A DNA stretch of 64,000 nucleotides. It comes from Sulfurimonas sp. HSL3-1. GTDB lineage: Bacteria > Campylobacterota > Campylobacteria > Campylobacterales > Sulfurimonadaceae. The translations under genes and the position numbers were made by a program. Where the stretch lies: positions 186,001 to 250,000 of the forward strand of contig NZ_CP147920.1 of NCBI RefSeq assembly GCF_039645995.1, written 5' to 3'. The notes beneath the pieces are model-generated. The model did not search any database and was not told the DNA's origin. It saw nothing but the letters and a program-made list of their open reading frames with translations. This document shows, piece after piece, positions 39,357-40,345 of the stretch; the stretch's first letter is position 1; each line of letters starts with the position of its first letter.

Positions 39357-39467
39357 GAACGCTCTCCTTTAGACCTGTGCAATGCGTAGGCGAGGCACTG
39401 GGTCAGGATGGGAACATAGCAGCCCACCTTTTCTGTGCATGTGCCGCAGGTATCTGGAGGAGAGTTC
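39357..39467 (+). ncRNA. ffs: 4.5S signal recognition particle RNA
   Basis: The diagnostic SRP domain IV is present: GGGTCAGGATGGGAACATAGCAGCCCA split by the conserved GGTCAGG and AGCAGCC internal-loop strands (around 39400-39425). The outer strands GAACGCTCTCC (39357-39367) and GGAGGAGAGTTC (39456-39467) close the rod. It binds Ffh and targets membrane proteins. A T-rich tract from 39474 probably ends transcription. It lies after lspA, as in related genomes. Ends are uncertain by several bases. Confidence 0.9.
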
Positions 39468-39602
39468 CTCACTACTTCTTTTTATATAACCCCCCAAAAA
39501 AACTGTTTATGAAACGTTATTGATGCTGTGCGATCATGCTCGTTGATGGTATTGAGCCCTTCCCGCTACAATGCTTTCAGACAGATCGAACACAAGGAGT
39601 GT

Positions 39603-39857
39603 ATGATGAGAACGTATAAGTTGGCGGCAATGCTGCTCGGCGCGGTCCTGTTGATGGGAATCGGCGCGACGTCGGCCTTTGCAAAATGCAACGGCGAAAA
39701 AATGGAAACACCGGCAACCAAGTGCAGCGGTGAGAAAAAAGCACCGATGAGTACGAAGTGCAACGGCGAGAAGAAGCCTGAGACATCCAGCAAGTGCAAC
39801 GGTGAGAAAAAAGTACAGCCGCAAGGAAAATGCGGCCAGGGCAAATGCGGCGGGTGA
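39603..39857 (+). CDS. Secreted cysteine-repeat peptide, bufferin/EGKCG-like
   Basis: 84 residues. A signal peptide (MMRTYKLAAMLLGAVLLMGIGATSAFA) precedes four 12-residue repeats of the form KC-(N/S)-GEK-x6 and a final GKCGQGKCGG, giving six evenly spaced cysteines and many lysines. This resembles the Cys-rich EGKCG-type bufferins (periplasmic metal-buffering peptides, in known cases modified by a DUF692 enzyme). No DUF692 or DUF2063 gene is adjacent; the next gene is DoxX. The start is set by AAGGAG; TACAAT is at 39567-39572. Metal binding is an inference. Confidence 0.75.
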   Translation: MMRTYKLAAMLLGAVLLMGIGATSAFAKCNGEKMETPATKCSGEKKAPMSTKCNGEKKPETSSKCNGEKKVQPQGKCGQGKCGG

Positions 39858-39895
39858 TCCCGCAGCAGTGAGTTTCGCGCAGGAAAGGAGCCGCC

Positions 39896-40345
39896 ATGCA
39901 ATGCCAGCTTTCCAACCTATGTAAAATCGTCGAACCGGCCGTGGAAAAGCTTCAGAGTGTCGCACTGCTTTTCGTACGGCTGATCCTCGCTTATGGTTTC
40001 TATGAACCGGCGAAGATGAAGTGGAATGACATCGGCTCCGTGGCCGAATGGTTCGCTTCCATGGGCCTCCCAATGCCCACACTGCAGGCATACCTGGCGG
40101 CAACGACGGAAGCGTCGGGTGTCGTGCTATTGACGCTGGGGCTATTTACGCGGCTGATCTCCATTCCGTTGATGGTCGTCATGCTCGTTGCCATTACCCT
40201 CGTGCACCTGCCAAACGGCTTCCAGTCAGGCAACAACGGGTTTGAAATCCCGCTGTATTATTTTATTATGCTTTTCGTCCTGCTGACGCACGGCGCCGGT
40301 AACCTCTCCTTCGACCGGCTGCTGTTCAAACGCAAAGAGGCCTGA
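39896..40345 (+). CDS. DoxX-family membrane protein
   Basis: 149 residues, four transmembrane helices. The N-terminal VALLFVRLILAYGFYEPAKMKW and the GLFTRLISIPLMVVMLVAITLVHLP stretch are DoxX-like. DoxX proteins occur in thiosulfate or sulfite handling and near bufferin genes, but the activity here is unknown. GGAAAGGAG lies 6 bases before the ATG, 38 bases after the cysteine-repeat gene, so the two are probably one operon. Confidence 0.85.
   Translation: MQCQLSNLCKIVEPAVEKLQSVALLFVRLILAYGFYEPAKMKWNDIGSVAEWFASMGLPMPTLQAYLAATTEASGVVLLTLGLFTRLISIPLMVVMLVAITLVHLPNGFQSGNNGFEIPLYYFIMLFVLLTHGAGNLSFDRLLFKRKEA

Follow-up and report, generated by a model that had tools for sequence, protein, structure and literature searches.

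An hvfA-hvfX-type gene pair without MNIO in Sulfurimonas, with a GMC flavoprotein pair as candidate partner

Some bacteria use an iron enzyme, MNIO, to convert small exported cysteine-repeat peptides into copper binders, with 5-thiooxazole or other modifications at Cys. HvfX/DoxX takes its name from MNIO-dependent maturation; in Haemophilus, HvfX is the DoxX-like product of the hvf operon (PMC13419390). For the FonBC-type MNIO, single-position variants of the precursor are tolerated only with Gly or Ala directly after Cys (PMC12668002). Buf_EGKCG precursors in genomes without MNIO have been recorded as rare (67 of 2583 genomes, Table 3), with their modification state left open (PMC12452194). 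Fructose and glucose dehydrogenases are made up of a flavin subunit containing a 3Fe-4S cluster, a hitch-hiker subunit of the Tat type, and cytochrome c (PMC9727119). Here we describe a locus of the sulfur-oxidising bacterium Sulfurimonas sp. HSL3-1. The reading that we favour, at about even odds, is that it is the hvfA-hvfX pair of an MNIO-free variant of the oxazolin/captophorin type, with a flavoprotein as redox partner.

The window, that is the whole stretch of 64,000 nucleotides that was analysed, contains on its forward strand an hvfA-like gene (39603-39857) for an 84-residue peptide, predicted to be exported and scoring below threshold against NF050137. Read by eye, the peptide opens with a typical Sec signal peptide of 27 residues ending in AFA, which is kept in orthologues (39603-39683, forward; MMRTYKLAAMLLGAVLLMGIGATSAFA). 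Four 12-residue repeats of the form KC(N/S)GEK plus six residues follow (39684-39827, forward; KCNGEKMETPAT/KCSGEKKAPMST/KCNGEKKPETSS/KCNGEKKVQPQG), and the C-terminal KCGQGKCGG (39828-39854, forward) resembles HvfA EGKCG motifs in the NF050137 alignment, which covers residues 63-84. The cysteines stand at positions 29, 41, 53, 65, 77 and 82, so that the regular spacing claimed for all six in a preliminary description of this DNA applies to five of them at intervals of 12, 12, 12 and 12, the sixth lying 5 residues further on. A likely sigma-70 promoter, by consensus match only (TTGATG, 18-bp spacer, TACAAT; 39543-39572, forward), and an AAGGAG-type Shine-Dalgarno sequence precede the ATG. Because the first ATG is missing in the sister genome G007, the start may instead be at 39606. 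Between lspA and the peptide gene lies a bacterial small SRP RNA (39366-39463; RF00169, 62.5 bits).

The region upstream of the peptide gene, including leader and promoter, is highly conserved, at about 90% identity among four members of the genus. Orthologues in three sister genomes occupy the same genomic place and keep all six cysteines, every KC dyad and GEK, and dN/dS against genus orthologues is 0.10-0.20, indicating purifying selection. Conserved position, conserved cysteines and dN/dS together establish that the peptide gene is under selection and is no chance open reading frame.

The family of the peptide is less simply stated. It has no Pfam match at E values up to 1, DUF2282 included, and identity with the Buf1 bufferins, which is defined by that domain, was rejected. 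Against the HvfA model NF050137 it scores 14.2 bits with an NCBIfam cut-off of 19.5, and by sequence it is not placed in HvfA (NF050137/NF050188); nor are an MNIO (HvfB) and a DUF2063 protein (HvfC) encoded alongside or elsewhere in the genome. In the genus member G005, the peptide in the same glmM-lspA-peptide-HvfX neighbourhood scores 25.2 bits, above the cut-off, and because of this synteny we read the Sulfurimonas peptide as a diverged HvfA. It is thus likely to descend from HvfA, an assignment made by position and not by sequence membership. The preliminary description had rightly called it bufferin-like and signal-bearing; more precisely it is to be grouped with the HvfA/EGKCG kind (oxazolin, captophorin) and not with Buf1.

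The start of the second gene, hvfX (39896-40345, forward), lies 39 bp downstream of the peptide gene; both members of the pair are present as first described. Its product, a DoxX-family helical membrane protein of 149 residues, scores 130.8 bits against the HvfX model NF050144 (cut-off 80) and 67 bits against PF07681, its AlphaFold2 model has a pLDDT of 92, and its dN/dS among sister genomes is 0.01-0.13. A fold search of HvfX against the PDB gave no confident match, the best being weak. Judged by model score and by the adjacent HvfA-type gene, this protein is the HvfX of oxazolin/captophorin (hvfABC-X) operons. At its own locus it is, as had been noted, the only partner linked to the peptide.

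The known maturation enzymes are absent. The genome is a single closed contig of 2.5 Mb, and neither MNIO (DUF692, PF05114), even in a loose first look, nor DUF2063 (PF09836) gave a match anywhere in it, which disposes of the suggestion that the known maturation genes lie elsewhere. Asn or Ser, not Gly, follows the cysteine at four of the six sites, and these four should for that reason be unsuited to a FonBC-type MNIO. The same trend is visible more widely: Gly follows Cys at 170 of 173 positions (98%) in peptides beside MNIO, as against 270 of 410 (66%) in MNIO-free, HvfX-linked peptides (per-genome p=1.4e-5). Lys precedes Cys at 138 of 173 and 396 of 410 (97%) positions respectively, a count partly raised by a peptide filter demanding two KC and drawn from genomes that are not independent. 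It seems that these peptides have been freed from a constraint set by the active site of MNIO, and that Lys-Cys has become the retained feature.

Such loci are common among relatives. In a survey of 299 Campylobacterales genomes with a completeness of 90% or more, HvfX exceeded its cut-off in 66 and MNIO was found in 27 (PF05114, E below 1e-80), and 48 of the 66 HvfX-bearing genomes lacked MNIO, named records among them including ones labelled Sulfurimonas, Sulfurovum and Sulfuricurvum. In most of the MNIO-free genomes examined, a signal-bearing Cys-Lys peptide adjoins an HvfX gene. The Sulfurimonas locus is no orphan accident, and since many genomes keep HvfA and HvfX in the absence of MNIO, it is indicated that HvfX does something for which MNIO is not needed. 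Two further arrangements were seen. At five Sulfurovum-type loci (L138, L147, L149, L151, L163) two different Cys-Lys peptides flank HvfX, the signal being lipoprotein-like in the upstream peptide and ordinary in the downstream one, and in f9 genomes (g26, g72; L234, L238, L242, L253) an HvfA-motif peptide lies just 3' of a YceI-like gene, apart from both MNIO and GMC.

What accompanies HvfX in MNIO-free genomes is a pair of genes for a GMC oxidoreductase and its Gluconate_2-dh3 small subunit (GLD3), the latter bearing a twin-arginine motif. The pair occurs in 43 of the 48 MNIO-free HvfX genomes versus 4 of the 18 with MNIO; MNIO only is found in 14 HvfX genomes, GMC only in 43, both in 4 and neither in 5 (Fisher p=3e-7; p=0.03 when collapsed by genus), p-values that are not fully corrected for kinship, the HvfX tree being poorly resolved with 1 independent pair on supported branches. 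Genomes with an HvfA motif over the cut-off (n=42) divide similarly, into 24 with GMC only, 11 with MNIO only, 5 with both and 2 with neither. Switches have occurred within genera: g37 comprises four GMC genomes and one with MNIO, g21 five with MNIO and one with GMC, and g68 one of each. Over all 299 genomes, regardless of HvfA or HvfX, exclusivity is not seen (p=0.64), and the claim is for this reason limited to genomes bearing either; five f9 genomes carrying both MNIO and GMC count against it. A further point against a GMC partner is that 43 of 72 GMC genomes lack an NF050137 match, although the same model also misses the peptide studied here.

The association extends to gene order. When neighbours were clustered at 62 MNIO-free peptide-HvfX loci, GMC oxidoreductase appeared in 29 and Gluconate_2-dh3 in 24, in the same operon as peptide and HvfX or divergent from them. 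Of 69 genomes inspected, 41 have the pair adjoining the peptide, and it was seen at none of the MNIO loci inspected, linkage counts that come partly from loci fetched via HvfX; it also stands beside the peptide where HvfX is lacking (L202, L204, L209, L231). Directly 5' of the GLD3-GMC pair of G070 is a Met- and Cys-rich reading frame (L227:2928-3596) unlike the KCG type.

In the Sulfurimonas genome itself, a profile search found one GMC match (C1:1,246,176-1,247,837), with a Gluconate_2-dh3 gene just upstream. This pair spans C1:1,245,643-1,247,876 and is unlinked to the hvfA-hvfX locus, as it is across the genus, which speaks against a GMC partner. A second HvfX gene, followed by a gene for an FMN-binding, glutamate-synthase-like membrane protein (PF01645; C1:2,300,381-2,302,588, L038:1382-3589), was considered as a hidden peptide locus and rejected, there being no Cys peptide and the FMN gene in its place. 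Genes of this FMN type adjoin HvfX or GLD3-GMC at 48 fetched loci, in MNIO and GMC genomes alike. Peptide, HvfX, the FMN synthase-like gene, Gluconate_2-dh3 and GMC form one cluster in four Sulfurimonas-like genomes of g2 (G008, G106, G149, G299), and G246 has all of these except the peptide in one cluster. The genome studied here seems to carry the g2-type module divided among three loci. The preliminary idea of a simpler, unmodified peptide system overlooked a third partner, the GMC flavoprotein pair elsewhere in the genome, which is peptide-linked in relatives.

The GMC protein combines a conserved frame with an altered centre. By Pfam and Foldseek it has the GMC fold and the Tat small subunit of GMC sugar and gluconate dehydrogenases, and among solved structures it comes nearest to fructose dehydrogenase and FAD glucose dehydrogenase, its best Foldseek matches; the model of the Sulfurimonas protein has a pLDDT of 77, with low confidence in the Cys (Fe-S) loop. 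Fructose dehydrogenase has at its active site His1147, mutated in PDB entry 8k6j, and Asn1190 (8xcn). The position of the catalytic His1147 is Leu in 57 of 57 peptide-clade GMC proteins, a change shared by Bacteroidales GMC proteins, and at the Asn1190 position every readable sequence has Pro or Ala; the Cys triad of the cluster region is kept in nearly all 57. A Campylobacter-type homologue (G303, locus L229) retains both His and Asn. Because both residues are replaced, the partner is, as far as its active site tells, not an ordinary sugar dehydrogenase.

The pattern recurs outside the order. Among named genomes with HvfX and MNIO, a strong GMC match was absent in six of six (two Bacteroidales, Chlorobiota, Chitinophaga, Pedobacter and a Melainabacteria record), and most MNIO-free named genomes, including a Caldithrix record, had one. 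The GMC protein occurs in 12 of 393 Bacteroidales genomes, and at the 12 loci picked by GMC sequence alone a KCG peptide adjoins the pair in four (L288, L291, L295, L300), upstream and on the same strand in three; the peptides of L295 and L300, the two scanned, exceed the HvfA cut-off. One of the four (G334) was known before the search and three were new; with these three, what had been predicted from Campylobacterales was borne out in a second phylum. At the Bacteroidota/Chlorobiota HvfA-type loci L139, L150 and L265, the surroundings of the peptide include a gene resembling a sigma factor and a small one for a putative anti-sigma factor, with or without MNIO.

If the pair does operate with the flavoprotein, HvfA would be exported via Sec, and its cysteines beside Lys would stay free or form disulfides. 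By analogy with its family, it may bind periplasmic copper or other soft metals. Exported by Tat together with its small subunit, the GMC flavo-iron-sulfur protein could determine whether the Cys or Lys-Cys sites of the peptide are oxidised, reduced or modified. Electrons would pass from its Fe-S cluster into the respiratory chain, and HvfX might serve as the membrane partner. A bolder form of this idea, tentative and in our judgement less likely than not, is that Campylobacterota and some Bacteroidota have repeatedly given up the cytoplasmic MNIO/DUF2063 system that serves HvfA-type copper peptides in favour of a flavo-iron-sulfur enzyme of GMC fold, which Tat exports to the periplasm and whose rebuilt active site would oxidise or modify Lys-Cys sites after export. 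Were this true, there would be a route of ribosomal peptide maturation outside the cytoplasm.

A plainer account, which we consider rather unlikely, has the peptide remain unmodified and take up copper or other soft metals in the periplasm as a thiol sponge, with HvfX as its sole partner and with the GMC pair belonging to the same stress response and having no action on the peptide. The genus is in keeping with it, since only hvfA and hvfX stand together there and GMC is unlinked; a relaxed Cys-Gly context is what would be expected without a modifying enzyme, and the four sites unsuited to FonBC-type MNIO (PMC12668002) point the same way. Peptide-GLD3-GMC operons without HvfX in two phyla, and co-occurrence in 43 of 48 genomes, suggest more than common regulation. 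The dependence might also run in the opposite direction, with the peptide serving the GMC enzyme as a metal or thiol accessory for dehydrogenase assembly, Fe-S protection or substrate handling. The frequent adjacency of GLD3-GMC to the peptide in Campylobacterales suits this proposal, and the 3Fe-4S cluster of homologous enzymes (PMC9727119) could be protected by a periplasmic thiol peptide; we nevertheless find it improbable, and against it stand genomes that lack the GMC pair and in which peptides of this family work with MNIO. That the locus is the decaying remnant of a captophorin operon after loss of MNIO and DUF2063 would agree with the missing MNIO and with a motif diverged below the HvfA cut-off, but is highly improbable given dN/dS of 0.10-0.20 with all cysteines kept, the lack of MNIO in 48 of 66 HvfX genomes and the expansion of repeats in many lineages. 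A diverged MNIO missed elsewhere in the genome is least credible of all: very distant homologues can escape profile searches, yet PF05114, which detected 27 of the 299 Campylobacterales genomes with E values under 1e-80, gave no candidate here, and its usual partner DUF2063 is likewise absent.

Returning to the flavoprotein as redox partner, the GMC pair adds a second, concrete enzyme to the candidates and could account, in a way open to test, for the precursor genomes without MNIO reported in PMC12452194. If it acts on the peptide, copper-handling peptides, a widespread class, would gain a second chemistry, in sulfur oxidisers that are abundant in the sea.

Compared with known systems, the locus stands close to the oxazolin/captophorin operons (hvfABC-hvfX of Haemophilus and fon of Fontimonas; PMC13419390, PMC12668002), with the same exported Lys-Cys repeat precursor and HvfX-family DoxX and, in relatives, HvfA-type motifs that exceed the NCBIfam cut-off. 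It differs from them in a genome without HvfB and HvfC, in Asn or Ser, not Gly, after four of its six cysteines and in having the GMC pair as recurrent partner. The survey of Buf_EGKCG precursors without MNIO (PMC12452194) proposed no alternative partner, whereas in Campylobacterales the MNIO-free state is commoner than the MNIO-bearing one and is accompanied by the GMC pair. Buf1 (DUF2282) and Buf2 are likewise exported Cys peptides adjoining DoxX and are thought to buffer copper, but the peptide described here has no DUF2282 match, a different Cys pattern and no MNIO. On the enzyme side, FAD glucose dehydrogenase (6a2u) and fructose dehydrogenase (7w2j, 8jej) share with the candidate partner the GMC fold, the Tat small subunit and the Fe-S cysteines; the partner differs in having Leu for His, Pro or Ala for Asn1190 and linkage to a Cys peptide, and no cytochrome c subunit was seen alongside it. 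The Campylobacter-type gluconate dehydrogenase homologue likewise pairs GMC with subunit 3 and comes from the same bacterial order, but is 25% identical, keeps the catalytic His and Asn, and had no adjacent peptide.
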